This document shows positions 30,518 through 46,575 of a DNA stretch of 46,830 bases, in pieces; within the stretch, counting starts at the first letter, position 1, and every line of letters starts with the position of its first letter. The position numbers were made by a program, and so were the translations under genes. The stretch covers positions 1-46,830 of the forward strand of contig JAHEKM010000008.1 of NCBI GenBank assembly GCA_024638325.1, written 5' to 3'. The notes below the pieces were generated by a model. That model worked only from the letters and a program-made list of their open reading frames with translations. It did not search any database and was not told the origin of the DNA. This DNA comes from Gemmatimonadota bacterium (lineage in GTDB: Bacteria > Gemmatimonadota > Gemmatimonadetes > Longimicrobiales > Gaopeijiaceae).

Positions 30518-31639
30518 CTATGCGTTCGGGTCGAAGGTGTATCCCAGGTAGGAAAAAAGCAGAATATACGCCAGCGCCCCGAAGGTGAGCCACGTCCAAA
30601 GCTTTCCAGGCTTGGCGTCGGGACCCTTCGGCTTGTCCAGGAACGGCACGAAGAGCAGCACGATGCCGACCACACCGAACGCGCCGACACCGACCAGCTC
30701 TCCCTCGATCCCCATGATCTCGGCAGGCAAGTAGCGGAGGGTCTGGAACATGAACATGAAGTACCACTCCGGCTGAATGCCCGCGGGCGCCGGCGCGAAC
30801 GGATCTGCCTTCTCACCCAGGTGGGCCGGGAAGAACGCGGCGGCGGCGGCGAGCATCGCCAAGGCGGCGAGCCAACCCACCAAGTCGCGAAGCAGGAACT
30901 GCGGGAAGAACTTCATGGACCGCCTCGGGCCGCCCTCTGCTTCGATGCTCGGAGGCACACTCATGCCGTGACGCTGCACGAGAAGCACGTGCAGAGCGAC
31001 CAGCATGAAAGCCAGGGCAGGAAGCACGGACACGTGCAAAGCGTAGAAGCGCGTGAGCGTGGCACCTGAAACGTCCTCCCCACCCCTGAGCACGTCACGG
31101 ATGAACGGCCCCACGACGGGCACCACGCCGGGGATCTCTGTTCCAACTCGTGTCGCGAAGAAGGAGAGCTCGTTCCAGGGCAGCAGGTATCCCGTGAAGC
31201 CCAGGCCCATCGACACGAACAGCAGGCCGACACCGGTGATCCACGTGATCTCGCGTGGCGCGCGGTACGCCTTCAGGAGCATGACGCTGAACATGTGCAC
31301 GAACGCCATGAAGATCATGAGGTTCGCACCCCAGGAATGGATCGAGCGGATGAGCCATCCGAACTCGACCTCGGCCATGAGGAACTGGATCGACTCGTAG
31401 GCGCCCTCGGCGCTGGGCCTGTAGTAGAAGAGAAGAAGGATGCCGGTGGCGATCTGTAGGAGGAACAGGAAGAGCGCCATGCCGCCGATGTAGTACCAGA
31501 AGGAATGGCGGTGAACGGGCACCTCCTTCTTGCGCAGGACCGGCATGATGGCCGAGAGCCCGATGCGATCGTCCAGCCAGGATGCGAATCGCCCGATCGC
31601 GCCTCGCGCTCTGGAACCGGGGCCCGTCCCGTCGGTCAT
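30518..31639 (-). CDS. Cytochrome b of a bc-type quinol oxidoreductase (fused b6 and subunit-IV regions)
   Basis: The protein has 373 residues. The b6-like half has two pairs of heme-ligand histidines. The first pair (IHSWGAN...FVHMF) is spaced 14 residues and the second (LHVSVLP...ALHVLL) 15 residues, as in b6-type rather than mitochondrial bc1-type proteins. The subunit-IV-like half follows in the same chain and carries the quinol-site motif [10 protein letters not shown]. The cysteine that binds heme ci in b6f is replaced (WYYIGG). The start is the ATG at 31639, which shares one base with the Rieske stop; in-frame sequence upstream to 31819 lies inside the Rieske gene. It should oxidise quinol in the inner membrane with the Rieske protein. 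Confidence 0.92.
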
Positions 31640-32097
31640 CAGCTTCTCACGCTGACCACGATCTGCCCCCCACGCTCGTTCACGTCGAAGACCTGCAGCG
31701 GCTCGGGAGGTGGCCCGGCGATATTTCGACCATTGAGGTCGAAGTGGCCATTGTGGCAGGCGCACCAGATGTGACTTAGGTCCTCTCTGTACTGGACCGT
31801 GCAGTCGAGGTGGGTGCACCGAGCCGAGAAGGCACGCAGCTCGCCGCCCGGCGTGCGCACGAGAATCCCGGGACGGGTACCGAACTTGAAGATCCTCCCA
31901 AAGTTGCTCGGCACATCGTCCGCCGCGAAAGCGAGCGTCACGCTGTTGACGGACGCCTCCGGCACCTCCGGCGGCACGATGTAGCGCGCCACCGGATAGA
32001 AGACCGCGGCGAGGAAGCCCCCCGCGCTCGTCCCCAGGAGCCAGTCCACAAAGCGTTTGCGCGTCACCGGCTTCGTGCTCGAGTCCCCGTCCTTCAT
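31639..32097 (-). CDS. Rieske [2Fe-2S] protein of the bc-type complex
   Basis: The protein has 152 residues. The N-terminus is basic ([12 protein letters not shown]) and leads into a single membrane anchor at about residues 21-41. The cluster motifs are CTHLDC and CACHNGHFD, with the disulfide-type extra cysteines present and a GPPPEPL loop after them, as in b6f/bc Rieske proteins. It would pass electrons from quinol at cytochrome b to a c-type cytochrome. It is overlapped by the 9-heme gene upstream (32094-32097) and the cytochrome b gene downstream. Confidence 0.95.
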
Positions 32098-33350
32098 GAT
32101 GTGTCCTCCGCTCTCTCGAGCTCGCGGATCTTCATGAGTAGTCCAATAATCAACAGCAGAATGATGGACGCCGAAGCCCCGAGGCCGAGACGCCGGAACC
32201 GGTGCTCGTCGAGCGCCTCCCGTCCTCGTTCCGCCGCCCTGACGGTGATCTCCATGCCCGCCGCGACCTGCTCCCTCACGGGCGCCACCTGGAACGTGTG
32301 GATGGCGCTATGCGCGCGGGTTTGGGCGTTACCCACGTCCTCCAGCTCGAAGAGCGCCTGGCTCACCTCCATGCCGACGTTCTCGGCCTCCTCCAGAATG
32401 GCCCGGCTGGCCTCGGCGGCCCGGTTGAGCGTGTCGAGCACCGCTGCGATGCGCCGGAACTCGAGCCCCAGCGTGTCCGGGGGCTCGTGGCAGGTGAGGC
32501 AGACGTCCTCGGACCTGGCGAGCAACGCCGCGTCATCGACCGACTCGATGGCGTGATGTTCGTGGCAGAGAGCGCAGCCTGGGAGGTCGGCCTCCTCGAA
32601 GATCTGCCCGTGGGCGCTGTCGTCGAAGTAGTCGGCCATGACCGAGTGGCACTGCCCGCACACGTTGCGCACGGACGCGAGCCCCGGCGGCGCGGCACCA
32701 TGATTCCCGTGGCAGTCGTTGCAGACCGGCGCCGACAGGTCCCCTTCTTCGAGCAGGAGCTGACCGTGCACACTACCCGTGTACTCGGCGACCTGGCTCG
32801 TGCCGATCTCGCGAGCGGCCATGCGCGCAGGGTTCGCATGGCACCGGCCACACGTGCTCAGGATGTTGGAGGGGTGCACCGTCGAAGCTGGGTCGTCCGC
32901 AGGACGGATCTCATGAGCGGGGTGGCAGTCGATGCAGGTCGCGACGTCCGGGTCGTTGGAGTCTTGCAGAAGCTCGCCGTGTCGCGAGGTCCAGTACTCC
33001 TGAACCTGGTCGACCCGTAGGCCGGGATCGAACTGGCGCATGAAGACCGCGTCCGAGTGGCATCGCCCGCACATCCCCGGGATCTCACGGCGCTCAGGAG
33101 CTGCCAGAAAGCCCGCAGCGGGATTGAGCTGGTTCGTGCCACCGCTTCCGTGGCAGGCGAGGCACCCGAACCCCGTCTCCGCGTGTACGTCCCTCTCGTA
33201 GGCACGTGCAGGAGCGACGAGGCTCTCCTCCTCCAGAGCGAGGTGGCAGTCCCGACAGGCGTCCGAGGACGGGAGCGTCTGGGCGGCAGTGGGTACGAGC
33301 GGCAGCAACCACAGAAGCGTCGCCAGCCAGAGGTGACGAGCCACCCTCAT
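32094..33350 (-). CDS. Nine-heme c-type cytochrome with C-terminal membrane anchor
   Basis: The protein has 418 residues. The signal peptide ends at VPTAAQ (about residue 24). Nine CxxCH sites are counted in order: CRDCH, CLACH, CGRCH, CIDCH, CGRCH, CNDCH, CGQCH, CALCH, CLTCH. After them come a helical stretch with few hemes and a membrane helix at about residues 389-405, followed by a charged tail. Extra histidines near the motifs could be second ligands. Its place directly before the Rieske and cytochrome b genes suggests it replaces cytochrome c1/f as electron acceptor of the complex. The ATG at 33350 overlaps the previous stop. Confidence 0.92.
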
Positions 33351-34171
33351 GGGTGCCTCCAGCCCGCCAGGGCCGTGGTCCCGCCACGCATCCGGTGACA
33401 CTCGATGCAACTTCCGCCCGGCTCGTGGTCGATCTGATCCAGGTGACAGGACTCGCACACCGGGCGAGTGGTCGCGATAGCCTCGACCTCGGGCGCCCTG
33501 TGACAACCGGAGCCGCTGCAGGTCAGGTGCACCTCGACGCCGTGGGCACCGGCGGCCGGTTCAACGTGACAGGCGGCGCACGACGACTCCACCGTGTGGT
33601 GCTCCGCATGACACGACGCGCACGCCACCGCTGGGGTGAGCGCCGGAAGCGCCTGATGGCAGCTCGAGCAGTCGAGGTCGTCATGGATCGAGTGATCGAA
33701 GTCGAGCGCGCGCTCCCTCGGCCCGGCCCAGACCTCCAGCGCCAGCTCCTGCACGCTGGCGAGCGTGGGACGGCTCTCGTGGCAGGACTCACATGCGAGC
33801 AGTTGAGCGGCGTCGTGGTGGCAGGACTGACACTGCTCCGGCGACAAGGCCTGGACCGTCGCGCTCGCGGCCGCAGTATGGCAGTCGGCGCATCCCAGGT
33901 CGGTATGGGAGGCGTGCCCCCGAGGCACCTCGTGGCATACCGCACAGGTGACCTGACCGTGCGCCTCGTGCGGGAACGACTCGGGGCGCGTGGAGCGCTG
34001 CATGGCGTCCGGAAGGAAGGGCCGTAAGCCGGGCTCGGTCGTCGCGCCCTGCTCCACGGTGGCCGGTACGACCGCAATCGTCTGCGGCTGGTCCGCCTCG
34101 CTCTCCGGTTCTCCGCCACAGGACGCGGCGAGCGCCACGACGAGCAGAGCACCGGTCCAGGGGCGGCTCAT
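33347..34171 (-). CDS. Ten-heme c-type cytochrome, probable lipoprotein
   Basis: The protein has 274 residues. The signal LLVVALAASC suggests lipidation at Cys18. Heme sites are nine CxxCH (CAVCH, CADCH, CQSCH, CESCH, CSSCH, CASCH, CAACH, CESCH, CIECH) and one expanded CSGSGCH. That is one heme per about 26 residues of mature chain, typical of wire-like cytochromes. Its last 100 residues closely match the end of the 20-heme protein (CASCHAEHHT, ES, then CSGSGCH, then DHEP). It is in the middle of the operon, six bases after the monoheme gene. Confidence 0.92.
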   Translation of the reverse strand: MSRPWTGALLVVALAASCGGEPESEADQPQTIAVVPATVEQGATTEPGLRPFLPDAMQRSTRPESFPHEAHGQVTCAVCHEVPRGHASHTDLGCADCHTAAASATVQALSPEQCQSCHHDAAQLLACESCHESRPTLASVQELALEVWAGPRERALDFDHSIHDDLDCSSCHQALPALTPAVACASCHAEHHTVESSCAACHVEPAAGAHGVEVHLTCSGSGCHRAPEVEAIATTRPVCESCHLDQIDHEPGGSCIECHRMRGGTTALAGWRHP

Positions 34172-34176
34172 GGCTA

Positions 34177-34644
34177 CTACTGCTCCAACACGTCGGGTCG
34201 GAGGCTCAGCAATATATACGCCGCGGTAGCGTCGATTTGCCGGGGTGTAAGATCATGATCGCCGAACACCGGCATCCCCGACTCGTGACCGACGAAGATC
34301 ATGCGCCGTAGGGAGTCGAGGTTCGCCAGGGGCCAGTCCGGAGCGACCAGGCTCGGGACGGCGAGGTTTCGCTCGCGGGCGTATTCGGTGTCCCCCCGGC
34401 CCAACTGGCCGTGACAGCGTCGACATTCCTCCGAGTAGATCGTATTGCCCTCGAGCATCAGCGCGGACGAGTCGGGCCACGACACAGAGTCGAATACGTC
34501 CGCGGCGTACGCCGCCGCCGCTCGGTTCACCCGATCGGCACGGTCGGGAGGCTCGAAGTCGTGACTCGTGCATCCAATCAGGGCCACTGAAGCCGCGAGG
34601 ACGACTCCGGCGCACACCTTGGGGAATCCGGCTGGCGAGCTCAT
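34177..34644 (-). CDS. Monoheme cytochrome c lipoprotein
   Basis: The protein has 155 residues. The lipobox LIGC places the lipid on Cys25. The single heme site is Cys74-x2-Cys77-His78 (CRRCH), and the likely axial Met124 is in ESGMPVFG, as in class I cytochromes c. LTPRQIDATAAYILLSL is the usual C-terminal helix. His/Met ligation suggests a higher potential than the bis-His multiheme partners. The ATG at 34644 follows GAGGTATCG, and a longer frame reaching 34869 overlaps the TPR gene. Confidence 0.9.
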   Translation of the reverse strand: MSSPAGFPKVCAGVVLAASVALIGCTSHDFEPPDRADRVNRAAAAYAADVFDSVSWPDSSALMLEGNTIYSEECRRCHGQLGRGDTEYARERNLAVPSLVAPDWPLANLDSLRRMIFVGHESGMPVFGDHDLTPRQIDATAAYILLSLRPDVLEQ

Positions 34645-34651
34645 CGATACC

Positions 34652-35020
34652 TCACGGAATGCTGTCTCCATTATGCAGGAGCGTGGCTCCAGGCACGACG
34701 CTCCTGGCACGCTCCAGGGCCTCTTCGGCCAAATCCACGTCACCCAAAGCGTCCGCCGCCATGTACACGCCGAACCAGCCGGCGGCGAGATCGGGCGCGA
34801 TCTCGGTTGCTCGACTGTAGTGAAGCAACGACTGCTCGAAGTCGTCGATGCGATACGCAGCCGAACCACTGTCGAGCTGCGCCACTGCCGCCGCAGGCAT
34901 GTTCTCGCGGGCCTGCATGCCTTGGTGAGGGTCGAGGGTGTCCGTCCTCTGATCGTCGGGCCGGCAGGAAACTGCGGCGGCCAGGACGAGGAGCACTGCT
35001 AGAGCGCGTCTCTTGTTCAT
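34652..35020 (-). CDS. Small TPR-repeat lipoprotein
   Basis: The protein has 122 residues. The signal LLVLAAAVSC gives a likely lipid site at Cys19. The body holds a tetratricopeptide pair (AYRIDDFEQSLLHYSRATEI and GWFGVYMAADALGDVDLAEEAL). No heme motif is present. It lies between the 16-heme and monoheme genes with gaps of 6 and 7 bases, so it probably serves as an assembly or docking factor for the cytochromes. That role is inferred from context only. Confidence 0.83.
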   Translation of the reverse strand: MNKRRALAVLLVLAAAVSCRPDDQRTDTLDPHQGMQARENMPAAAVAQLDSGSAAYRIDDFEQSLLHYSRATEIAPDLAAGWFGVYMAADALGDVDLAEEALERARSVVPGATLLHNGDSIP

Positions 35021-35026
35021 GGCTCG

Positions 35027-36454
35027 TCACTCGTTCAAAGGGTTGCCGATATGACACGCCAGGCAGGTTCTCGGGCTCCGCCCCCAAGCTCGCTCGGCGT
35101 CGAAGCCGACCGTGTGCGGACTCACCTTGAAGGCGCCGAGCACTCCGTGGCACTGCGTGCAGTCGACCTGCTGATGACAGCTGGCACAACTCTCCAGATT
35201 CTGCCGCGCCGCCTGTCCGTGACGGATCAACCAGACCGGACCATCGTCATGATAGCCGGGCCCGAGTCGGCCGCTACTTACGAGCCCCACCTGAACATGG
35301 CATTCCCGACAGAAGACCTGAGTGCTGTGGCAGCTCGAGCATTCTGCGTCGCGGCCGAAGGCGTCTGCCGTGTGCCGGGCGAGGAAGGAGCTCGGGTGGT
35401 ATCCGTTGCCGACGGGCGCGTCGTGGCAGCTTACGCAGAAGGTCTCCTGATGGCAGGTCGCGCAGGTCTCTGCGCCGGCCGCGCCGAGGCCCGTATGCGC
35501 GTTCATGAAGAAGACGCTCTCATGGCTGTCGGGTGCTCGACCCGCGACACGGACTCCAGGTGCCACGACATCATCGCGTGACGGCATCGACAGGACGGCG
35601 GCGGGCAGGGGGATAACGTGGCAGCTCGTGCAGTCGTTCGACGTGTGGCAGGTCGCGCACTCCGCTCTGGAAGCTTCGGCGCCGTGCAGGGTGAGCCACT
35701 GACCGGCACGGTGGGTCGTCGGCTCGTTGTAATGGGCCACCGCCACAGGTAGCCGCATTCCCGGCGGCGCGGCAGGGAAGTCTGCAATGACATCGCGCTC
35801 CGTATCGACGTGGCACGACACGCATCGCTCCTGCGTGTGGCAGGTCGCACAGCGCGACGCGTTCTCTTGGACCGCCACTCCGTGATCCCTCTCCAGGAAG
35901 GAGCCCGGCTCGTGATCCGAGGGCAGCGGCAAGGCCTCGATTCGAGCGAGATCGAACGCCGTGCGAGCCAGCGGCACGTGACAGGCGTCGCAACTCGCGT
36001 CGACCTGGTGCTCGGTCGCCGCATGCGCGTGGCATCCCCAACACGTCCCCAGCTGGATCTCGTCAGCGACGGCCATGCGTTGGCCACCGGGGAGGATGTG
36101 ACAGGAGGCACAGCTCTGTGCGGGATCTCCCGACGCCTCGAGCGCCGCATCGTGCTCGAGGTGCGAATACGACACGTTGTCGACGCGTCCGGTCGGACCG
36201 CTCCAGGTAACGGCTTCCTCACGCACGCCGTCGTGACAGCCCCGGCACGAGGCCGGATCCGGATAGAAATCGGACTCGTCCCCCGCGGGCACGCCCTCGT
36301 GGCAGCCGGCGCAGAGCGGGAAGAGCCCCTGGTGCGCCTCGTGGGGGAAAGGAGCCTCCTGAACGGCGTTTGCGGAGACCGCAAGTCCGCCGAGCCCGAC
36401 AAGGGCGCCAGCAACAAGGACCCAGATCCGTGCATGGGAGGCTCTCACCATCAT
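35027..36454 (-). CDS. Sixteen-heme c-type cytochrome
   Basis: The protein has 475 residues. The signal peptide covers about residues 8-30 (VLVAGALVGLGGLAVSANA). Sixteen CxxCH sites were counted, the first CAGCH and the last CLACH, with histidine-rich spacers such as FPHEAHQ and YSHLEHD that can give second ligands. No lipobox and no C-terminal anchor are evident, so a soluble periplasmic wire is likely. Paired sites with short spacing (CATCH then CVSCH) occur several times. The ATG at 36454 (or the next codon) overlaps the stop of the beta-barrel gene. Confidence 0.92.
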   Translation of the reverse strand: MMVRASHARIWVLVAGALVGLGGLAVSANAVQEAPFPHEAHQGLFPLCAGCHEGVPAGDESDFYPDPASCRGCHDGVREEAVTWSGPTGRVDNVSYSHLEHDAALEASGDPAQSCASCHILPGGQRMAVADEIQLGTCWGCHAHAATEHQVDASCDACHVPLARTAFDLARIEALPLPSDHEPGSFLERDHGVAVQENASRCATCHTQERCVSCHVDTERDVIADFPAAPPGMRLPVAVAHYNEPTTHRAGQWLTLHGAEASRAECATCHTSNDCTSCHVIPLPAAVLSMPSRDDVVAPGVRVAGRAPDSHESVFFMNAHTGLGAAGAETCATCHQETFCVSCHDAPVGNGYHPSSFLARHTADAFGRDAECSSCHSTQVFCRECHVQVGLVSSGRLGPGYHDDGPVWLIRHGQAARQNLESCASCHQQVDCTQCHGVLGAFKVSPHTVGFDAERAWGRSPRTCLACHIGNPLNE

Positions 36455-37953
36455 CCACCGGGCCTCCTGCCCATGCCCGGATCTCCTCCGAGATCGAACC
36501 TGAGCGAAGTCCAAGCCCGCCCTTGGTTCCATGGGCTCGTGAACACGTTTCCTCCGTCGCGGTGGCGGATCATCGAGAACCCACCGGACAAGCCCACGCG
36601 ATCGGTGAGCGCGTAGTCCGCGGTCGCCCCAGCCCCGAACGCCCGGCCCTGGCCCAACCGGTACTCCTCGATCTGTTGGAACGAAAGAGCGGTGGCGGAG
36701 ACCGACACTCGATCGTTGACTCGGTACCGAGCGGTGCCGTCCACGCTGCTTAGGAATGCACCCGGGCCCCACTCCAACTGATAACGACCGTCGAGGGTCC
36801 ACCTTGGAGCCGGCGCATACTGCACGCCGACGTCGGCCCTCCAACCGTTGTCCTTCATCGGCTCGAGAATGACGGTCGCTCCGGTCGCCCCGTAGCTACG
36901 GGCGCCTCCGGCGACCCACACCCCGAGCGACGCGCTCGGTGACCAGCCTAAGCGAGCGACGGCCTCGCTGTAGGAGACCGGCTCGAAGAAGCCCCAGATG
37001 GTCGACAGGTCGAAGTAGGGCACGTAACGACGCGCGCTCAATTCGACGAGCCAACGTCCGTCGCGCAGCGGCGCGGAAGCGGTGAGCTCGGCTTTGCCTA
37101 CCTGCTCGAAAGAGAAGTCGTAGTCCACCGACCCCGTGACGCGCACGCGCGACAGCACGGTGGTGGCGTCCAGAGATGCCCGCTCGCTCACCAGGCTCGA
37201 GCGATCCCACAGGATCTCGCGATGGTAGCGAGCCGTGGTTAGGATCCCGGCCGTCCTCATGCTGGCGCTTCCGCCGACCAGCAGGACGCCGTGGTCCAGG
37301 AAGAAGTCGTCCAGGGCGCGTAGGGCAGAGCTCGACGGCTCCCGCAAACCCCGGGCCAAACTGCGCCCGCCGTAGATCTCGGCTCGCGCGGAGCCGTACG
37401 TATAGGAGGCGCTGACACCGTCGAACGCCGACAGGCCGAGTCCAGATCGCAGGTCCTGTCGGCCGGCGCGCACGCGCATCGGTCCACGCTGGAGTTGGGC
37501 GTAGGCAAGCATCGCGTCGAACTCGTCGTCCGACCGGGGCCACATCAGATCGCTCCCCGCGTGGAGGCGCACGCGTGCTAGAGCCGTGACGCTGAGCCCC
37601 TCCACCCCCAGCCCCCAGTACGTGAGGCTCAGGTCCTGCGTCGCGGCGACGGTCTGCTCCTCTGCGAGCGGGAGGTACCCGGTGCAGATCGTGGGCAAGA
37701 CGCACGACACCTCGATGCCGTTGTAGAGGAGGCGCCCGTTCGCATCGGTCACGACGTCGGCGCGCGGCACGGTGTCCAGGCCGAGGGGACGCAGCTCGAC
37801 CATCTGCACGGAGGTCGTTGCCCAGCCCCTGTAGTCCTGCGCCGTCGACATCGTCGGGACGACCGATGCGGCGAGCGCCATGAAGAGCGCCGCACAGACC
37901 GTCGCGCCCGCCCGCCGGACGCCCCATCGCCCGTGCAAGCGCGCGGAGGTCAT
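36451..37953 (-). CDS. Predicted outer-membrane beta-barrel protein in the cytochrome operon
   Basis: The protein has 500 residues. A long signal peptide ends near VPTMSTAQ (about residue 39). The mature chain has many amphipathic strands with alternating residues and aromatic ends (for example LSLTYWGLGVEGLSVTA, WTSLRFDLGG near the C-terminus) and glycine-rich turns, as in porin-type barrels. There is no CxxCH. Two cysteines sit in a loop (VSCVLPTICTG). Its position between the 20-heme and 16-heme genes, overlapping both, suggests a porin-cytochrome conduit. No similarity to a named porin is claimed. Confidence 0.78.
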   Translation of the reverse strand: MTSARLHGRWGVRRAGATVCAALFMALAASVVPTMSTAQDYRGWATTSVQMVELRPLGLDTVPRADVVTDANGRLLYNGIEVSCVLPTICTGYLPLAEEQTVAATQDLSLTYWGLGVEGLSVTALARVRLHAGSDLMWPRSDDEFDAMLAYAQLQRGPMRVRAGRQDLRSGLGLSAFDGVSASYTYGSARAEIYGGRSLARGLREPSSSALRALDDFFLDHGVLLVGGSASMRTAGILTTARYHREILWDRSSLVSERASLDATTVLSRVRVTGSVDYDFSFEQVGKAELTASAPLRDGRWLVELSARRYVPYFDLSTIWGFFEPVSYSEAVARLGWSPSASLGVWVAGGARSYGATGATVILEPMKDNGWRADVGVQYAPAPRWTLDGRYQLEWGPGAFLSSVDGTARYRVNDRVSVSATALSFQQIEEYRLGQGRAFGAGATADYALTDRVGLSGGFSMIRHRDGGNVFTSPWNQGRAWTSLRFDLGGDPGMGRRPGG

Positions 37954-39527
37954 TGGAGTGCGCCTCGTTGCGGCAACGGAGCCGGAAGCGTGTGACACTC
38001 GGCACAAGTGCGCTCGGGCTCGTGCTGCCTGAGGTCCTGGTGGCATCCGAGGCAGAACGCCCGCGTCCGCGGCACCGTTTCAAACGGAACGTCCGTGTGG
38101 CAACCCGAGCCGCTGCACGTCACGTGCGCCTGCAGCGGCGGATGGGCTTCGACCGGGGCCACACGATGGCACGACGCGCAGTCGGACTCGGCGGTGTGGT
38201 GTTCTGCATGACAGCTCGCGCAGTCGAGGCTCGCGGGGACCGCCATCGCGATGCCCTGCGTGTGGCACGACGCGCAGTCCACGGCTCCGTGTTCCTCGTG
38301 TGGGAACGTGACAGTTCGGCTCGGAACTTCGGTGCCCACCGAGAAGCTCATCGCCTGGGTGAGGCGATAGGTCTCGGCAGGGACGTCGCCGGCATCGTGG
38401 CAAAGGTCGCACGACTGCGAGACGGGCTGAGTGTGGTGGCAGCTCCGGCAGTCCTGTACGGCAGCCAGTGCCACGATGCCATGCCCCGCGGTGCTGGCGT
38501 GGCAACTCGCGCACTCCACATTCTCGTGCTGCGTGTGCGCGAACCCGAGAAGCGCGTCCGGCGCGTCGACGGCGGTCATGCCCCGGTGGCAGCTGGCGCA
38601 GTCGGATCCGTTCAGCGAGAAGTCGTGCGCCTGGTGGCAGTACAGGCAGTCCGACATCAACGACGCGTCGAGCCCGACATGGAAGGGCGTAAGCGAGCGC
38701 ATACCCTCGTGACACCCTGACGTAGCGCACGAGTTGGCCGCTTCCGCAGGTGTGGCCTGCGTATGCGGGTTGTGGCAGGCCGCGCAGCCACCCGCGTGGG
38801 GATCCGGGTCTGGAAGCTCCACGAGCGTCCGCATGACGTGACAGCTCAGGCACTCCTCGTAGTCGGGGAGGAAGGCCGCGTCGAGCTCGTTGCCGATCAG
38901 CGAGGCCTGCTGAGCCGTCGGCGCCACGAACGTGTGACAGGCGGCGCAGTGGATGGTCAGGTCGCTCATGCCGCCGAGCTGGATGATGTTGTCCGCGTGG
39001 CACTGCGACTGGGCGCACGTCTGATCGATCGGTGCGAACTCGTGGATCGACGAGGCATGACACTCGACGCACTGCAGCCCCTCGAGTACCGGGTCCTCCG
39101 ATTCGAAGTGGACCCGATGTCCGGCGGAGTTCGCGATGGAGCGCCAGCGTACGGGGTCACCCTGAATGTGACATTCCGCGCAGACTTCATTAGGGACCGG
39201 AGAATGCTCCGACACCTCGTCCGGATTCTCGATGAACGCAGTGAGACCCATGGTCGAGCGCTCGATCAGGGTCGGCCTGTGACAAGCTTTGCAGCCGAGC
39301 CCCTGGTGGGGACTCTGGGCAAAGCGCTCGAACGGCTCCGACATGAGGTGGCACTGCATGCAGAAGTCGTTGTCGTGCTGTACATAATCGTAGGCTCGAT
39401 ACGCGTAGTAGCTGCCCCCGCCTACACCCGCCGCGATCAGCACGCCCACCACCGCCAGCACGGCGGGGGACAGACGACCTAGCATATCAACCAGTCGCCT
39501 CGAGCGTGAGGACGTGTCGTCGGCCAT
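37950..39527 (-). CDS. Twenty-heme cytochrome with N-terminal NapC/NrfH-like quinol dehydrogenase domain
   Basis: The protein has 525 residues. It has one uncleaved membrane helix at about 20-43. Hemes 1-4 (C56-H60, C79-H83, C116-H120, C153-H157) follow the NapC/NrfH layout, including FCMQCHLMSEPFE, a later QSPHQGLGCKACHRP and CVECHASSIHEF. After residue 165 come sixteen more sites. In total 17 are CxxCH and 3 are Cx4CH (CAQSQCH, CATSGCH, CSGSGCH). This appears to be a quinol-oxidising domain fused to a heme wire. The C-terminal part resembles the 10-heme lipoprotein. Its stop overlaps the beta-barrel start. Confidence 0.9.
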   Translation of the reverse strand: MADDTSSRSRRLVDMLGRLSPAVLAVVGVLIAAGVGGGSYYAYRAYDYVQHDNDFCMQCHLMSEPFERFAQSPHQGLGCKACHRPTLIERSTMGLTAFIENPDEVSEHSPVPNEVCAECHIQGDPVRWRSIANSAGHRVHFESEDPVLEGLQCVECHASSIHEFAPIDQTCAQSQCHADNIIQLGGMSDLTIHCAACHTFVAPTAQQASLIGNELDAAFLPDYEECLSCHVMRTLVELPDPDPHAGGCAACHNPHTQATPAEAANSCATSGCHEGMRSLTPFHVGLDASLMSDCLYCHQAHDFSLNGSDCASCHRGMTAVDAPDALLGFAHTQHENVECASCHASTAGHGIVALAAVQDCRSCHHTQPVSQSCDLCHDAGDVPAETYRLTQAMSFSVGTEVPSRTVTFPHEEHGAVDCASCHTQGIAMAVPASLDCASCHAEHHTAESDCASCHRVAPVEAHPPLQAHVTCSGSGCHTDVPFETVPRTRAFCLGCHQDLRQHEPERTCAECHTLPAPLPQRGALQ

Positions 39528-39655: not shown

Positions 39656-41137
39656 TTAGTCTTCCACCGGCACGAACTGCGGCCACATGGTCCTGAGGCT
39701 GACGTTCGTCTGGGCCGGCAGGCCGTATTCGTCCCTCACCTCGTCGATGCTCGCGACGAGCAGCGCCTCGGTCATGAACGGGTTGTGGACCGCCGAGCTC
39801 CTGATCTCGCCGAGCTCCATGTTGAACTGCGCACCCTCGGCCACCGTGAAGATCGTATCGCCTCGGTTGATCTGCGTGGGATCGTTCGTGACTACCTGGG
39901 TCAACAGGGCGTCGAGCTCTGCGACCAGGTTGTCGATCCGGGTCGTAGCCGCGTTGTACGCGGACAGCGCCGCCGTGGCATCACCGTGGCAGCCGCTCGT
40001 CGTGCACGAGGCCCACGTCCGCTCCGTGGTGTTCACGGCGCACGAGTCGTCCGCGATCGGAGCGCCCGACGCATCCAGGCACGGGATCGGCTTGAACAGG
40101 TGGCCCGTCGCGGTGACCACGAAGGCTCCGGACGCGTCGTTCACGTCGTAGGAGTTCACGTGGCAGCCGACGCAGAGTCCGGCGTTCGCCGCGCTTCCGT
40201 GTGAACCGCGGATGCGGTCGATGTTGTATGCGAAGTTGGGCGGCAGCCAGCCGACGTCTCCGACGACGCCGAGCAGCAGCGGACCTTGCGGCGAGTGCGG
40301 CCCACGGGTCCCACCCGGCGAGTCCTCCAGATCTGGAACCGCGCGCTTGACGTGGCACTGCATGCACAGGTTCTTCTCCACGTCCGGGTCGTCCACGGAC
40401 ATCCTCAGCTGCCCCGGATTCGAGGCGTCGTGAGGATCGTGGCACACCGCGCACGTGATCGGCAGGTTGTTGTCCGTGTCGTCCACGACAGTGCCGAACT
40501 CGGAGTAGATCGTCTGCACGCCGAGCAACTCGAGCGCGCCCTCTCCGGTGTGGCACGACTCGCAGTCGGACCTCCCCTGTGGGTAGGCGTTCATGTCACC
40601 GTGCCGCGACTGGCTCCACTCTTCCACGAACGGGTGGTGGCTGCCCGCGTGGCACTCGCCGCACCCCACAGTGAGGTCGATGCCGACGCTCAGCGGCGCC
40701 ATCGGCACGGTGAGGTCGGTGGGGTTGGTCACGTGGGCGAGCCCCGGACCGTGGCACGACTCACACTGCACGTCGTGGTAGCGGTCCTCGAACGTGGTGT
40801 TGTAGCCGGCCTCGACGTCGATGGCGTTGCCGAGTTCGTTGACCGAGTGGCAGCCCTCGCAGAAGCCCTGCGCGGCGCCTGAGGCCTGCAGCGTCTCCCA
40901 AGCATCTGCGTGGGCCGTGCCTTCCCAGTCACCCTGCTTCTCGACGTGGCAGTTGCCACAGACGGTCAACTGGGCTGCCTGGTCCGAATAGCCGAGGAAG
41001 TTGGCCGCCTGAGCGAGCGGCTCCTCGAAGAGGTCGCGATCCCGGAAGATGATCTTCTCGTCCACGCAGCCCGCGAGGGCGGAAAGGCCGAGCACCGCCA
41101 TCGGGATGATTGCGAAAGCCCTACATGACCTTCTCAT
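39656..41137 (-). CDS. Nine-heme cytochrome c554-like lipoprotein
   Basis: The protein has 493 residues. The lipobox LAGC puts the lipid on Cys24. Sites counted are eight CxxCH (CGNCH, CEGCH, CESCH, CGECH, CESCH, CAVCH, CMQCH, CVGCH) and one CTTSGCH. The segment HADAWETLQ, then CEGCH, then VQCESCHGPGLAHV is the cytochrome c554 pattern. Its C-terminal 130 residues have no heme. It is the first gene of the cytochrome operon; GAGAGGTGG precedes the ATG at 41137. It is divergent from the hydrogenase operon across a 350-base region. Confidence 0.9.
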   Translation of the reverse strand: MRRSCRAFAIIPMAVLGLSALAGCVDEKIIFRDRDLFEEPLAQAANFLGYSDQAAQLTVCGNCHVEKQGDWEGTAHADAWETLQASGAAQGFCEGCHSVNELGNAIDVEAGYNTTFEDRYHDVQCESCHGPGLAHVTNPTDLTVPMAPLSVGIDLTVGCGECHAGSHHPFVEEWSQSRHGDMNAYPQGRSDCESCHTGEGALELLGVQTIYSEFGTVVDDTDNNLPITCAVCHDPHDASNPGQLRMSVDDPDVEKNLCMQCHVKRAVPDLEDSPGGTRGPHSPQGPLLLGVVGDVGWLPPNFAYNIDRIRGSHGSAANAGLCVGCHVNSYDVNDASGAFVVTATGHLFKPIPCLDASGAPIADDSCAVNTTERTWASCTTSGCHGDATAALSAYNAATTRIDNLVAELDALLTQVVTNDPTQINRGDTIFTVAEGAQFNMELGEIRSSAVHNPFMTEALLVASIDEVRDEYGLPAQTNVSLRTMWPQFVPVED

Positions 41138-41191
41138 GGTCCACCTCTCTTCCTTCGCCCCGTGGGCGGAACCGCCTGACTGATCGTTCAT

Positions 41192-41213
41192 TTGCACGTG
41201 AAAAGTGGTGCAA
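41192..41213. promoter_or_regulatory. Inverted repeat TTGCAC-N10-GTGCAA, possible operator
   Basis: Perfect 6-base half-sites are separated by 10 bases, 55-76 bases upstream of the ATG of the 9-heme lipoprotein. The 22-base span is compatible with a dimeric regulator. The family cannot be named from the site. Confidence 0.4.
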
Positions 41214-41333: not shown

Positions 41334-41475
41334 TCGCCAAGGCGTGATTCGCCCCCTGGGAGCGAGGCGTGCGTCGCCGGAGATTTCAGCAAAAGACGGT
41401 GGGCTGATCAACGGCTGGACGTTGCCCTCCGCGCCGCGGACGGGCTCGACATAGATGCTGTATCCGTCTGACGGT

Positions 41476-41483
41476 GGAGGTGA
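41476..41483 (+). promoter_or_regulatory. Strong ribosome binding site GGAGGTGA
   Basis: It lies four bases before the ATG at 41488 and supports this start over an in-frame ATG at 41455. Confidence 0.8.
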
Positions 41484-41487
41484 GTCC

Positions 41488-42669
41488 ATGTTCTTTCCCA
41501 CTTCGCACGCCTGGACTCACGACGAGACGCTCGCTGAGCATTTGGAGCGCCGCGGCGTAAGCCGGCGTGACTTTCTGAAGTTCTGCGGGCAGATCTCCGT
41601 CATGCTCGGGCTCAGCGAGGCGCTGACCCCACGCGTGGTGGAGGCCCTGCAGAGCGTTCGACGACCCTCGGTGGTCTGGCTCCAGCTACAGGAGTGTACG
41701 GGGTGCGTCGAGAGCGTCCTCCGGTCGGCTGATCCGACCATCGGGGATCTGGTGCTCGACCTGGTTTCCCTGGACTACCAGCACACGTTGATGGCCGCCG
41801 CCGGTGACGCGGCCGAGGCGGCGCTGCAAGCGTCCATGGAGGAGAACTACGGCGAGTACATCCTGCTGGTCACGGGATCGGTTCCGTTGGAGGAAGACGG
41901 GATCTACCTGACCATCGGGGGACGCACGGGCCTCGAAATCCTGGAGGAAGCGGCCGCCGGAGCCGCCGCCGTAATCGGCATCGGTGCTTGCGCGCACTTC
42001 GGGTCCGTGCAAGCTGCGCGCCCGAACCCGACGGGCGCCGTCGGCATCGCAGAGATCGTTCGGGACAAGCCGGTGGTCACCATCGCGGGTTGTCCGCCCA
42101 TCGCGGACGTGGTCACTGCGACCGTGGTCCACTACCTCACGTTCGGTCGGCTGCCCGACACGGACGGCGAGGGAAGGCCCCTGTTCGCCTACGGCGCCCG
42201 CATCCACGACCAATGCCCCCGAAGAGCACACTTCGACGCTGGCCAGTATGTGGAGAGGTTCGACGATGAGGGCGCACGTCGAGGATGGTGCCTCTACCGG
42301 GTCGGCTGCAAAGGTCCGGCGACGTTCTCGCCGTGTCCCATCCTGCAGTGGAACGACCACACCGACTGGCCGATCGGGGCAGGGCACCCGTGTCTCGGGT
42401 GCACCGAGCGGTTCTTCTGGGACACCATGACGCCGTTCTACGGTCGCCTGCCCAACGTGGCGGGCTTCGGCGTCGAGCGCACCGCGGACACCATCGGCGC
42501 CGCATTGGCCGTGGGCAGCGCCGCGGGCGTCGCCGCGCACGCGATCGCGACCGGCGTCAGTCGGGCTCGCGAACGGAGGAAGGGGGCTCCGCTCCCCGTG
42601 GTACCCAACCCGGGCACGGGTCCCGCCCCCGGCACGCCGGACTCCGGCAAGGAGGGATCCGATGGCTAG
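41488..42669 (+). CDS. hyaA: [NiFe] hydrogenase small subunit, group 1 membrane-bound type
   Basis: The protein has 393 residues. A Tat signal motif is present (SRRDFLK at 25-31). The proximal cluster cysteines are Cys70 and Cys73 in ECTGCVES, with later GACAHFGS and AGCPP. The distal and medial clusters are marked by HDQCPRR, RVGCKGPATFSPC and HPCLGCTERFFWD. The two extra cysteines of oxygen-tolerant enzymes are absent (Gly72, and Ser after ACAHFG), so a standard proximal cluster is expected. A C-terminal hydrophobic helix (IGAALAVGSAAGVAAHAIA) would anchor it in the membrane. The end overlaps the large-subunit gene by 8 bases. Confidence 0.95.
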   Translation: MFFPTSHAWTHDETLAEHLERRGVSRRDFLKFCGQISVMLGLSEALTPRVVEALQSVRRPSVVWLQLQECTGCVESVLRSADPTIGDLVLDLVSLDYQHTLMAAAGDAAEAALQASMEENYGEYILLVTGSVPLEEDGIYLTIGGRTGLEILEEAAAGAAAVIGIGACAHFGSVQAARPNPTGAVGIAEIVRDKPVVTIAGCPPIADVVTATVVHYLTFGRLPDTDGEGRPLFAYGARIHDQCPRRAHFDAGQYVERFDDEGARRGWCLYRVGCKGPATFSPCPILQWNDHTDWPIGAGHPCLGCTERFFWDTMTPFYGRLPNVAGFGVERTADTIGAALAVGSAAGVAAHAIATGVSRARERRKGAPLPVVPNPGTGPAPGTPDSGKEGSDG

Positions 42670-44374
42670 AGTCGTCGTCGACCCGATCACGCGGATCGAG
42701 GGACATCTGCGGATCGAGGTCATGGAGGAGCAGGGCCGCATCACGGACGCGTGGGCCTCGTCCACGCAGTTCCGCGGCATCGAGACGATTCTCGAGGGTC
42801 GTGACCCCCGCGATGCATGGGCGTTCACGCAGAGAATCTGTGGCGTGTGCACGGTGGTGCACGCGCTCGCCTCGTGTCGCGCCGTGGAAGACGCGCTAGG
42901 GATCTTCGTCCCACCCGCGGGCGGTCTGATCCGGAATCTGGTCCACGGCATGCAGACCGTGCAGGACCACGTCATCCACTTCTACCACCTGCACGCGCTC
43001 GACTGGGTCGACGTGGTGAGCGCATTGTCTGCCGACCCGTCGGCAACGTCCAACCTGGCCAGGAGCATCTCGCCATGGCCGAACAACTCGGCGACCTACT
43101 TCGCGGAGGTCCAGAACCGGGTCCAACGCTTCGTCGAGTCCGGCCAACTCGGGATCTTCACGAACGGCTACTGGGGCCATCCGGCGTACAACCTGCCGCC
43201 CGAGGCGAACCTCATGGCGGTGGCGCACTACCTGGAGGCCCTGGACTGGCAGCGTGACGTCATCCGGGTCCACACGATCTTCGGTGGCAAGAACCCGCAT
43301 CCGAACTTCCTCGTGGGCGGCATGGCTTCCGCCATCAACCTCGAGGATACCGGGACGATCAACGCGGAGAGCTTCACCAAGATCCAGGGGATGATCCAGC
43401 GGGCCCGTCGCTTCGTCGAGGAGGTCTACTGGCCGGATCTGCAGGCCATCGCGTCGTTCTATCCCGAGTGGGCATCCATCGGCGGCGGCGTGACCAACTA
43501 CATGTCCGTGGGCGAGTACCCGGACAACGGGCAGTGGCGTGACGCCGACTCGATGTACTTCCCCAGTGGCGTGATTTTCGACCGCAACCTGTCGGAGGTG
43601 CTGCCGTACGACCACCAGCAGGTGGCCGAATACATCACGAGCTCGTGGTACGAGTACGAGGGCGGCGACGACGTGTCGCTGCATCCGTGGGAGGGCGAGA
43701 CCACGCCCCGCTACACAGGACCGCAGCCGCCGTGGCAATATCTCCAGGACTTCGACAAGTACACCTGGATGAAGGCGCCACGGTACCAGGACCGGCCCAT
43801 GGAAGTCGGGCCGCTGGCGCGGGCGCTGGTCGCCTACGCGTCGGGCCACACCGACGTGCAGGACCTGGTGAACGACACGCTCGGCCGGCTCGGCGTCGGT
43901 CCGGAAGCGCTGTTCTCGACGCTCGGCCGCACCGCGGCGCGGGGGGTCGAAACGGTTCTACTAGCACGCAAACTGCAGGATTGGTTCGACGCCCTGATCG
44001 GCCGTATTCGCGCCGGCGACACCACCACCTTCAACGGTGACTTCTGGGAGCCTGACACGTGGCCCGAGTCGGCCCGTGGCTACGGCTTTCTGGAGGCGGC
44101 GCGAGGCTCGCTGGGCCACTGGGTCCAGATCGAGAACGGCGCCATCCGACACTACCAGTGCGTGGTGCCGAGCACGTGGAACTGCTCGCCGCGTGACGCG
44201 AGTGGCGCCAACGGCCCCTACGAGGCCGCGCTCATGGACAACCACCCGTTGGTCGACCCTGCGAGGCCCATCGAGATCCTTAGAACGATCCACTCGTTCG
44301 ACCCGTGCATGGCCTGTGGAGTCCACGTGCTGGACTCGGAAGGAAAGGAGGTCATACGGGTGAGGGTGCAGTGA
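42662..44374 (+). CDS. hyaB: [NiFe] hydrogenase large subunit, group 1
   Basis: The protein has 570 residues. The N-terminus VDPITRIEGHLRIEV is typical. The active-site cysteine pairs are RICGVCTVVH near residue 60 and DPCMACGVH at the end. About 15 residues follow the final His and would be removed by the maturation protease encoded two genes downstream. With the Tat-exported small subunit it should act on the periplasmic side, oxidising H2. The stop shares one base with the start of the cytochrome b gene. Confidence 0.96.
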   Translation: MARVVVDPITRIEGHLRIEVMEEQGRITDAWASSTQFRGIETILEGRDPRDAWAFTQRICGVCTVVHALASCRAVEDALGIFVPPAGGLIRNLVHGMQTVQDHVIHFYHLHALDWVDVVSALSADPSATSNLARSISPWPNNSATYFAEVQNRVQRFVESGQLGIFTNGYWGHPAYNLPPEANLMAVAHYLEALDWQRDVIRVHTIFGGKNPHPNFLVGGMASAINLEDTGTINAESFTKIQGMIQRARRFVEEVYWPDLQAIASFYPEWASIGGGVTNYMSVGEYPDNGQWRDADSMYFPSGVIFDRNLSEVLPYDHQQVAEYITSSWYEYEGGDDVSLHPWEGETTPRYTGPQPPWQYLQDFDKYTWMKAPRYQDRPMEVGPLARALVAYASGHTDVQDLVNDTLGRLGVGPEALFSTLGRTAARGVETVLLARKLQDWFDALIGRIRAGDTTTFNGDFWEPDTWPESARGYGFLEAARGSLGHWVQIENGAIRHYQCVVPSTWNCSPRDASGANGPYEAALMDNHPLVDPARPIEILRTIHSFDPCMACGVHVLDSEGKEVIRVRVQ

Positions 44375-45102
44375 TGGACGCCCCGACGGTGACTCCGCAG
44401 GAGAGCCTGAGCCGGGACGTCCCGGTCGAGTACAAGCGCGTCTACCTCTGGCATTGGCCCATCCGGGCCATGCATTGGACGGCTGCGCTCTGCGTGCTGG
44501 TTCTGATCGTCACGGGCTTCTATATCGGCGGTCCGTACTTCATGACGTCCGGCCAGCCCAGCGACCACTTCCTGATGGGTTGGGTGCGCTTCACGCACTT
44601 CACCGCCGCGGGCGTACTGTTCGCGACCGGGATCGTGCGTCTCTACTGGCTCTTCAACGGCAACAAGTTCGAGCGCTGGCGGGCGCTCTTCCCCTGGCAC
44701 CGCACGGACTGGATACACCTCTGGCAGTTGGTGAAGAAGTATCTCTTCGTGCAGGCGGAAAAGGCGCCGCACTACCTGGGGCACAACCCGCTGCAGCAGA
44801 TCGCCTACACTGGGATCTACGTGCTGGCCTTCGTGCAGGTGCTCACAGGCTTCTACCTGTACGGGCTCGTCGACACCGGGGGCTTCTTCTTCGTCACGTT
44901 CTCATGGGTCGGGAGCGTGCTCGGTGGGGCGCAGATCGTGCGCTTCGTGCACCACGTGCTCACGTGGTTCTGGCTGATCTTCCTGCCGGTGCACGTCTAC
45001 CTGACGGTGCGGTCGGATGTGCTCCACAAGGAGAGCCGGATTACCTCGATCGTCAGCGGCGAAAGCTTCGTGCGAGCCGACATCGAGTACGTCGATGATT
45101 GA
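44374..45102 (+). CDS. hyaC: Ni/Fe-hydrogenase b-type cytochrome subunit
   Basis: The protein has 242 residues with four membrane helices. Heme-ligand histidines are in the family places: HWPIRAMHW, FTHFTAAG and FVHHVLTWFWLIFLPVHVY. HyaC/HupC-type subunits accept electrons from the small subunit and reduce the quinone pool, which ties this hydrogenase to the quinone-using complexes of the divergent operon. The ATG at 44374 overlaps the large-subunit stop; a longer frame to 44305 lies inside that gene. Confidence 0.94.
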   Translation: MDAPTVTPQESLSRDVPVEYKRVYLWHWPIRAMHWTAALCVLVLIVTGFYIGGPYFMTSGQPSDHFLMGWVRFTHFTAAGVLFATGIVRLYWLFNGNKFERWRALFPWHRTDWIHLWQLVKKYLFVQAEKAPHYLGHNPLQQIAYTGIYVLAFVQVLTGFYLYGLVDTGGFFFVTFSWVGSVLGGAQIVRFVHHVLTWFWLIFLPVHVYLTVRSDVLHKESRITSIVSGESFVRADIEYVDD

Positions 45103-45625
45103 CGGCGAGACGGTTGTGCTCGGCGTGGGGAGCCCGCTCATGGGGGACGACGGCCTCGGAGTCGAGGTCGTCGAGACGCTCCGACACCAGTGGGCGCCCG
45201 ACGCCGACCTCGTCTTCCTGGACGGGGGCACCTGGGGCATGCGCGTCCTGCCGTACATCGAGGGCGCGCGACGCCTGCTCCTGCTCGACGTCATCCGCGC
45301 CGGTCGCGAACCGGGCACGCTCATCCGACTGGAGAAGGACGAGCTTCCCCGCCACCTGAAGCAGAAGCTCTCCCCCCACCAGATCGACCTGTCGGAGGTG
45401 CTCGCACTGGCCGAGCTCAGGGGCACGTTCCCGGACGAGGCCGTGGCGTTGGGCATCGAGCCCGACGTGGTCGAGCTTCACGACGGACTGAGCGAGACCG
45501 TGCAAGCCGCGGTACCCGAGTTGCTCGAAAGGGTGCGCGCCCAGCTCGCCGCGTGGGGTCACGAGCTCGTCCCGGCCAAAGGGGGCCCTCCCGGCGATCC
45601 ACGCACGAGGGCGGCCGATGCATGA
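45095..45625 (+). CDS. hyaD: Hydrogenase maturation protease, HyaD/HupD family
   Basis: The protein has 176 residues and is cytoplasmic. The family start is seen in VLGVGSPLMGDDGLGVE, then FLDGGTWG, and SPHQIDLSEVL with the metal-binding His. It cleaves the C-terminal tail of the large subunit after nickel insertion. The tail beyond the last His in the large subunit is present as expected. The ATG overlaps the cytochrome b gene by 8 bases, and the end overlaps hypA by 8 bases. Confidence 0.93.
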   Translation: MIDGETVVLGVGSPLMGDDGLGVEVVETLRHQWAPDADLVFLDGGTWGMRVLPYIEGARRLLLLDVIRAGREPGTLIRLEKDELPRHLKQKLSPHQIDLSEVLALAELRGTFPDEAVALGIEPDVVELHDGLSETVQAAVPELLERVRAQLAAWGHELVPAKGGPPGDPRTRAADA

Positions 45626-45878
45626 GATGAGCGTGGCGCTGGAAGTCTGCCGCATCGCCGAGGACCAAGTCGGCCTCGCCGCGCTCCCGAACGTGCGGGA
45701 GGTGGGCGTCATCGTGGGCCGCGACTCCGGCGTGGAACCCGAGAGTCTCCGTTTCTGTCTCGAGACGCTGCTGGCTAGCGCGCCCTTTCGAGGCGCGCGC
45801 GCGGCGCTCGACCTCACACCCGGAGACGACCTCCGGGTCAGCTATCTGGAGATCGAAGATGACGATTCGGCGAATTGA
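45618..45878 (+). CDS. hypA: HypA-like nickel chaperone lacking the zinc-binding loop
   Basis: The protein has 86 residues; HypA is usually about 110-115. The N-terminal Met-His-Glu (MHEMSVALEVC) that binds nickel is present, and LRFCLETLLAS and ARAALDLTP match the alpha/beta core. The segment with two CxxC pairs that binds zinc is missing: the chain goes from DLTPGDD straight to [11 protein letters not shown], the normal last strand. So it looks like an internal deletion, not a truncation or frameshift. It overlaps hypB by 20 bases. Confidence 0.85.
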   Translation: MHEMSVALEVCRIAEDQVGLAALPNVREVGVIVGRDSGVEPESLRFCLETLLASAPFRGARAALDLTPGDDLRVSYLEIEDDDSAN

Positions 45879-46575
45879 GGTCCGCGAGCGGGTCATGGAG
45901 CGGAACAACTCGCTCGCCCGTGACGTGCGCGCCCGGCTCAGAGGCATCGGCGTACCGGCGTTCAACCTGGTCTCCTCTCCGGGCTCCGGTAAGACGCTCC
46001 TGCTGGAGCGCACGCTCCAGGACCTCGGAAAGGAGATGCACATCGCGGTCGTGACGGGTGACGTTCAAACGCAGAACGACGCCGACCGCATCGCGAATTG
46101 GACCGACCACCTGGTGCAGGCGGTGGTGACAGGGGGCGCTTGTCACCTCGACGCTCGACAGGTGACCCAGGCGCTCGAAGCGCTGGAGCTGAGCGCGGTC
46201 GATCTCCTGTTCATCGAGAACGTCGGCAACCTGGTCTGCCCGGCCAGCTGGGACCTCGGAGAGACCGCCAAGATCGTGCTGTTCTCGGTGACGGAGGGCG
46301 AGGACAAACCGCTCAAGTATCCGAAGATGTTCCAGCAGGCCCGCTACGCGATGCTCACCAAGACGGATCTGCTACCGCACGTTCCGTTCGATGTCGCGAA
46401 GGCGAAGGAGTTCGCGCTCGAGGTGAACCCGCGTCTCCAGTTCTTCCAGACGTCCGGGCTCACCGGAGACGGCCTCGAACCCTGGTACGACTTCCTCAGG
46501 GCTCAGGTCACGCCCAGAACCAGACCCAAGGCGCGGGCCCGTAGGTCCAACGGCCTCGCCGGTGCGGCGTCATGA
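45859..46575 (+). CDS. hypB: Hydrogenase nickel incorporation GTPase HypB
   Basis: The protein has 238 residues. P-loop SSPGSGKT is at about 39-46, [14 protein letters not shown] at 66-79, and the metal site has Cys95-His96 (GACHLDA) and Cys127 ([12 protein letters not shown]). TKTDLLPH is the guanine-specificity loop. The histidine-rich nickel-storage N-terminus of some HypB proteins is absent. It delivers nickel to the large subunit together with HypA. The stop overlaps the ATG of the FeoB-like gene (ATGA at 46572). Confidence 0.95.

Follow-up and report, generated by a model that had tools for sequence, protein, structure and literature searches.

One of the open questions in extracellular electron transfer is whether the periplasm is crossed by small, diffusing cytochromes or by a fixed wire. 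The NapC-like inner-membrane proteins reported from such pathways have 4-10 hemes, and the outer-membrane conduit is formed by other proteins. A gene of an uncultured Gemmatimonadota bacterium raises the question whether both can be part of a single polypeptide. It lies in a stretch of 46,830 nucleotides (contig JAHEKM010000008.1 of assembly GCA_024638325.1), here called the window, from a genome bin of 3.1 Mb that is 80% complete and in which cytochrome c assembly proteins are encoded. The first-pass annotation of this DNA had described the product as a NapC/NrfH-type quinol dehydrogenase fused to a sixteen-heme wire. By profile and alignment, it is the membrane end of the N-terminal domain that resembles NapC, and a division into an 11-heme NapC-like half and a 9-heme c3/c7-type half describes the protein better than four plus sixteen hemes. 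With moderate confidence, we take the protein and its neighbours for a porin-cytochrome conduit for extracellular electron transfer, in which one polypeptide holds both the inner-membrane quinone module and the periplasmic cytochrome. The protein is composed as follows:

37950-39527, minus strand: 20-heme NapC-like fused cytochrome, an open reading frame (ORF) of 525 amino acids (aa) with 17 CXXCH and 3 CX4CH motifs
39384-39470, minus strand: single N-terminal transmembrane helix (about residues 20-48), from hydropathy and a modelled helix at 21-48
39057-39362, minus strand: NapC/NrfH-like four-heme region (residues 56-157) with CxxCHxM at 56-62, from PF03264 and TIGR03153 matches and Met62
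38586-39017, minus strand: hemes 5-11 (residues 171-314), completing an 11-heme N-half that stands alone in genomes G014 and G016
38544-38585, minus strand: variable linker (about residues 315-328), 14 residues here and up to ~100 in homologs
37986-38543, minus strand: 9-heme C-module of c3/c7 type (residues 329-514), from Pfam Cytochrome_C7 and Cytochrom_CIII, the paralog mhcB and a nine-heme cytochrome c among the PDB matches

The ORF, which runs on the minus strand from an ATG at 39527 to a stop at 37950, is real and not a chance reading, because homologs with all 20 sites kept recur in Gemmatimonadota genomes. A one-off fusion made by the assembly was likewise rejected, since the fusion recurs in many genomes. 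Relatives at 43-65% identity are present in eight named Gemmatimonadota metagenome-assembled genomes, the only phylum found in one pattern-limited scan of named genomes, and the N-half or the full protein occurs in dozens of further genomes. Among 298 genomes of the phylum, the family profile matches 77 at 1e-20 (either half counted), and 51 hold the fused form as read from the profile-match table; plasmids and PHROGs gave no match. All 39 distinct fused proteins, that of the window included, have 20 heme sites, and the total is unchanged although CX4CH and CXXCH swap among homologs (17+3, 18+2, 19+1). In a nine-sequence alignment, 42 of 42 His and 40 of 40 Cys are invariant. The 22 conserved His left after the 20 motif His would suffice as distal ligands for the other 19 hemes, provided that Met62 serves heme 1. 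By motif count, four sites fall within residues 56-157 and 16 beyond, as the first-pass annotation had it, and its single N-terminal helix is confirmed by hydropathy, which gives one hydrophobic segment at about residues 19-45 (Kyte-Doolittle 2.1 vs a maximum of 1.2 past residue 60).

The NapC-like nature of the membrane end was assessed with profiles for NapC/NirT/NrfH. The search that had been suggested for the N-terminus is significant: PF03264 matches residues 1-167 at 8.4e-8 with 32.6 bits, over a cut-off of 24.1 (25.2 bits in the genome search), and TIGR03153 (NrfH) matches the same residues at 1.3e-11. Under an NrfH profile built from genes of relatives, the N-terminus scores 44 bits and windows of other multiheme cytochromes at most 21.5; the shuffles of the same control reach at most 23.5 bits when the motifs are kept and at most 33.9 when the helix and the heme motifs are kept. 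NrfH of Desulfovibrio vulgaris aligns without gaps at residues 51-86, and Met62 of the heme-1 motif CxxCHxM (C56-M62) is kept in all 38 sequences that cover this site. The hhalign probability is 98.7% to NrfH, yet 91-97% for unrelated multiheme families, and for this reason the NapC-like call relies on the helix, the CxxCHxM motif and the spacing of hemes 1 and 2. Membership in NrfH itself was rejected, with 34-45 bits for TIGR03153, far under the equivalog cut-off of 134, and no nrfA in the cluster. A plain scan of the full 525 aa reports no PF03264 match, which together with the low TIGR03153 score argues that the 20-heme protein is not an NrfH. The true NrfH genes of relatives adjoin an ORF for a pentaheme, NrfA-like protein.

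Which division of the chain is the natural one can be read from its relatives. The boundary was placed after heme 11 because of the conservation pattern, the linker (14 to ~100 residues across homologs) and the existence of split genes. G014 and G016 encode the halves by separate genes, of which the 11-heme NapC-like one follows a cytochrome b gene and the C-module-type one precedes the gene of an outer-membrane barrel; a similar split is found in G257, and in G027, G054, G020 and G005 the C-module alone stands before the barrel. The barrel gene comes directly after the fused gene in 37 of 39 distinct cases and directly after a stand-alone C-module in 8 of 13. That fused and separate versions both occur is classic gene-fusion evidence for joint function of the halves, the first acting at the inner membrane and the second at the barrel. 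Residues 330-514 are 41% identical to mhcB, a paralog encoded nearby. Against PDB sequences, the whole protein yields weak c3/c7 matches only, while the family profile matches nine-heme cytochrome c as well as ActA, from alternative complex III. The C-module tree, built on 195 columns and with long branches, gives 6 changes, at least 2 of them forced by supported branches, and does not resolve which of the two states, fused or separate, came first. The earlier picture of four hemes followed by a sixteen-heme wire thus keeps its site counts, while its division is replaced by 11 + 9.

The gene pairing extends to a core unit that recurs across several families of Gemmatimonadota, in the order mhcD (9 hemes), fusion (20), barrel and mhcC (16), often followed by a tetratricopeptide repeat (TPR) protein. 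In the window, these and the adjoining genes are:

39656-41197, minus strand: mhcD, putative 9-heme lipoprotein (8 CXXCH + 1 CX4CH) with lipobox LAGC, surface-cytochrome-like (PF22113, 3.6e-8)
36451-37953, minus strand: outer-membrane beta-barrel of 500 aa (AlphaFold, Foldseek), its start overlapping the stop of the 20-heme gene (ATGA)
35027-36454, minus strand: mhcC, c7-type cytochrome with signal peptide and 16 hemes, a number shared by nearly all syntenic homologs
34652-35020, minus strand: TPR lipoprotein-like protein, a conserved neighbour of mhcC
34177-34671, minus strand: monoheme cytochrome c (PF13442)
33347-34171, minus strand: mhcB, stand-alone paralog of the C-module (41% identity), lipoprotein-like, 9 CXXCH + 1 CX4CH
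32094-33350, minus strand: mhcA, 9-heme cytochrome with C-terminal helix, encoded with Rieske protein and cytochrome b
31639-32097, minus strand: Rieske Fe-S protein (PF00355)
30518-31639, minus strand: cytochrome b of b6/bc type (PF00033, 4e-52)

The AlphaFold model of the barrel (predicted local distance difference test, pLDDT, 74) has ~22 strands by count. Its Foldseek matches are porins in general, and MtrB is absent among the best 50 PDB matches. For mhcD, the closest solved structures are 6qvm (multiheme cytochrome cf, 5.8e-9) and 6i5b (OcwA, 1.6e-6), the latter a nine-heme terminal reductase of the cell surface (PMC6703420). The lipobox and the OcwA/OmcA-type similarity suggest that mhcD is extracellular. 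These two proteins also bear on the possibility that no extracellular transfer takes place, the cytochromes reducing a soluble compound in the periplasm and the barrel being an ordinary porin that lets this compound in. The best PDB matches of the barrel are indeed substrate porins, and enzymes of nitrogen and sulfur cycling are among the relatives of OcwA-type cytochromes (PMC6703420); however, three multiheme cytochromes with 45 sites in a fixed order around one barrel follow the porin-cytochrome pattern, and mhcD has a lipobox. We regard such a periplasmic reduction as improbable.

Several results weigh against a conduit that starts with quinol oxidation by the fused protein and ends at the barrel. 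The NapC/NrfH match spans just residues 27-86 or 30-86, which hold the helix and hemes 1-2. The profile-profile score of the helix-free N-terminus is 76 to NrfH vs 74 for unrelated multiheme cytochromes, and in hhalign hemes 3-4 resemble other multiheme cytochromes at least as closely as they do NrfH. The NapC/NrfH assignment of the first-pass annotation, significant by PF03264, TIGR03153 and CxxCHxM, consequently applies to the helix and hemes 1-2, but hemes 3-4 are divergent. Counterparts of NrfH Lys82, which we take to be a quinol-site residue, and of Asp89 (CymA Glu107) are not conserved in a region that is shorter and whose alignment is unsure. Among the 39 fused sequences, there is no conserved basic residue between hemes 2 and 3, and the acidic residues at 103/104 are loosely kept (D/E at 103 in 27 of 39). 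The conserved residues in the stretch matching the NrfH quinol site are Pro102 and His108. The roles of Asp89 and of Met49, the heme 1 ligand in NrfH, have been summarised (PMC10654088). Quinol oxidation by the N-terminal domain is plausible. AlphaFold with nine homologs returned a model of the 20-heme protein (pLDDT 37; predicted template modelling score 0.19) that is confident only at helix 21-48, and since it is usable at the helix only, we make no claim on a pocket or a heme path. The link to the adjoining beta-barrel, proposed earlier, is borne out as a gene order in 37 of 39 cases, while physical contact is deduced from this order only.

Furthermore, the operon of the window runs on through mhcB, mhcA, the Rieske protein and cytochrome b, and such a bc-type module is itself a possible quinol oxidase. 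The N-terminal part might then be a mere anchor and the 20-heme protein a carrier, with quinol being oxidized by a complex of Rieske protein, cytochrome b and mhcA or by the cytochrome b of a hydrogenase. This alternative draws on the operon that mhcA, Rieske protein and cytochrome b share with the fusion, on the stand-alone 11-heme half directly after cytochrome b in G014 and G016 and on the lack of conservation of the NrfH quinol-site residues. However, Rieske and cytochrome b genes were not seen within the ~8 kb flank of most core clusters examined elsewhere, yet CxxCHxM is kept there, and we therefore hold a mere anchor to be unlikely. In the many genomes that have no Rieske protein and cytochrome b nearby, the fused protein is the only quinone-facing candidate of the core unit. 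The membrane helix of mhcA is C-terminal, not N-terminal, and the gene stands consistently before those for Rieske protein and cytochrome b. Locus L081 (G010) holds a divergent, back-to-back pair of related conduit operons, one with a stand-alone C-module and mhcA-Rieske-cytochrome b, the other with the 20-heme fusion.

A further candidate for the supply of electrons is encoded on the other side of mhcD:

41455-46575, plus strand, divergent: [NiFe] uptake hydrogenase cluster with small, large and cytochrome b subunits, protease and HypB (NCBIfam TIGR00391, TIGR02125, TIGR00072, TIGR00073)

Hydrogenase genes also stand beside the cluster in four other genomes, divergent in G323 and G257 and, past mhcC and the TPR gene, in the same direction in G311 and G256; with the window this makes five hydrogenase-adjacent cases, among which G257 has the split genes. 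Such genes were seen at 41455-46575 of the window and at loci L126, L135, L136 and L137, in varying orientation. Among the 298 genomes, a hydrogenase is found in 23 of 51 with the fusion vs 27 of 247 without it (Fisher 9e-8, kinship ignored), and fusion and hydrogenase are at most 6 kb apart in 4 of these 23, the window being one of the four. In some lineages, H2 may thus be one of the electron sources. The hydrogenase also bears on the direction of electron flow. In an inward conduit, electrons would pass from an extracellular donor over mhcD, the barrel and the 20-heme protein to the quinone pool, as has been proposed for CymA in the Mto pathway, and the co-encoded bc complex could run uphill. 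Against this, several genomes have an uptake hydrogenase next to the cluster, which points to quinol as the electron source, and mhcD resembles a terminal reductase, and we consider inward flow rather doubtful.

The sequences show which parts there are, how they are ordered and paired, how many hemes they hold and how far they are conserved; we infer quinol oxidation, contact with the barrel, a surface site of mhcD and an outward direction of the electrons. In this conduit the helix, evident in the sequence, would anchor the 20-heme protein in the inner membrane, and heme 1 with its Met ligand would take electrons from menaquinol. Heme order and conserved ligands suggest that these pass hemes 2-11, the flexible linker and then the 9-heme C-module. 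The near-invariant gene pairing points to docking of the C-module on or in the barrel of the next gene, from where mhcC and the surface lipoprotein mhcD would take the electrons to an external acceptor; in some lineages the adjacent [NiFe] hydrogenase may feed the quinol pool. The 20-heme protein probably carries electrons across most of the envelope, as 20 hemes could cover most of the periplasm given that the 21-27-heme cytochromes of PCC3 are considered able to span it (PMC10734462). A more tentative proposal is that one polypeptide, made of two halves that occur elsewhere as separate cytochromes, forms a direct wire from the quinone pool to the barrel, which would dispense with free periplasmic shuttle cytochromes and in some lineages would be paired with a hydrogenase for extracellular respiration driven by H2.

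Known systems share single traits with this arrangement. Members of the NapC/NirT/NrfH family (NrfH, CymA, TorC) have the single N-terminal helix and the heme-1 CxxCHxM, and NrfH of D. vulgaris matches gaplessly at hemes 1-2, but these are proteins of 4-5 hemes whose partner is a separate protein (PMC6295460; PMC12285233), whereas here 20 hemes with divergent hemes 3-4 are in one chain. ImcH of Geobacter, with homologs in Gemmatimonadetes, is likewise heme-extended and similar to NapC in the helix and first hemes (PMC6295460); by description it is set apart by three helices, 7 hemes (6-10 in homologs) and a gene that is not beside mtrAB/mtoAB (PMC6295460). As in porin-cytochrome complexes generally, the barrel gene adjoins that of a periplasmic multiheme cytochrome, and mhcD would be the extracellular cytochrome. 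PCC3 is alike in its porin, extracellular cytochrome and 21-27-heme periplasmic cytochrome thought to span the periplasm (PMC5566968; PMC10734462), but its inner-membrane protein is separate and has five helices (PMC5566968), while here the module is fused to the long cytochrome; a PCC3-type five-helix protein with HX13H motifs was not found among the operon ORFs examined. PCC3, CymA-Mtr and ImcH all keep the inner-membrane and periplasmic parts separate. MtrAB/MtoAB combine a decaheme MtrA with an MtrB of ~26 strands, compared to ~22 in the barrel here, and a simple relationship to MtrA was rejected (TIGR03508 24.4 bits vs 192). CbcL, MtrH and MtoC also unite a quinone module and many c-hemes (3-23) on one polypeptide (PMC6295460), but their module is a C-terminal multi-helix cytochrome b and not an N-terminal NapC-like helix. 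ImdcA of Thermincola ferriacetica, an inner-membrane-anchored 10-heme cytochrome proposed to oxidize menaquinol (PMC7911101), differs in its Gram-positive host, half the number of hemes and the absence of a barrel. The C-module, with its 9 hemes, matches the c3/c7 families and the nine-heme cytochrome c 19hc, which are free periplasmic proteins. The accessible part of a 2026 survey lists porin-cytochrome clusters with >20-heme cytochromes, some with petB/petC, and leaves this fusion unnamed (PMC13264449), and in the limited literature searched, no paper was found to describe a 20-heme cytochrome with a fused NapC-like module.

Other fusions were noticed in related genomes. At L079:3612-4838 (G003, same genus; also L032 and L061), an ORF joins a NapC-like four-heme part (homologous to residues 5-163) directly to the last third of cytochrome b (residues 273-373), and everything that lies between the two in the gene order of the window is missing; this looks like the scar of an operon deletion, with an assembly error as a possible cause. 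Two longer proteins (714-716 aa, 22-25 heme sites) are encoded at L078:7912-10053 (G033) and L084:7931-10078 (G039), adjoining genes for mhcA, cytochrome b and Rieske protein, and may be other NapC-like multiheme fusions; the one of G033 has a CxxCHxM N-terminus matching PF03264. In an ORF at L040 (G033:C11), the domain that comes after a NapC-type four-heme domain resembles by eye the fold of formylglycine-generating (sulfatase-modifying) enzymes.

A phylum-wide fusion of an inner-membrane and a periplasmic part, with the heme count fixed at 20, is a direct test case for how electrons cross the periplasm. The natural split-gene versions let fused and unfused conduits be compared. For the biology of the Gemmatimonadota, in which no extracellular electron transfer was found described in the papers searched, the cluster points to such a capacity.

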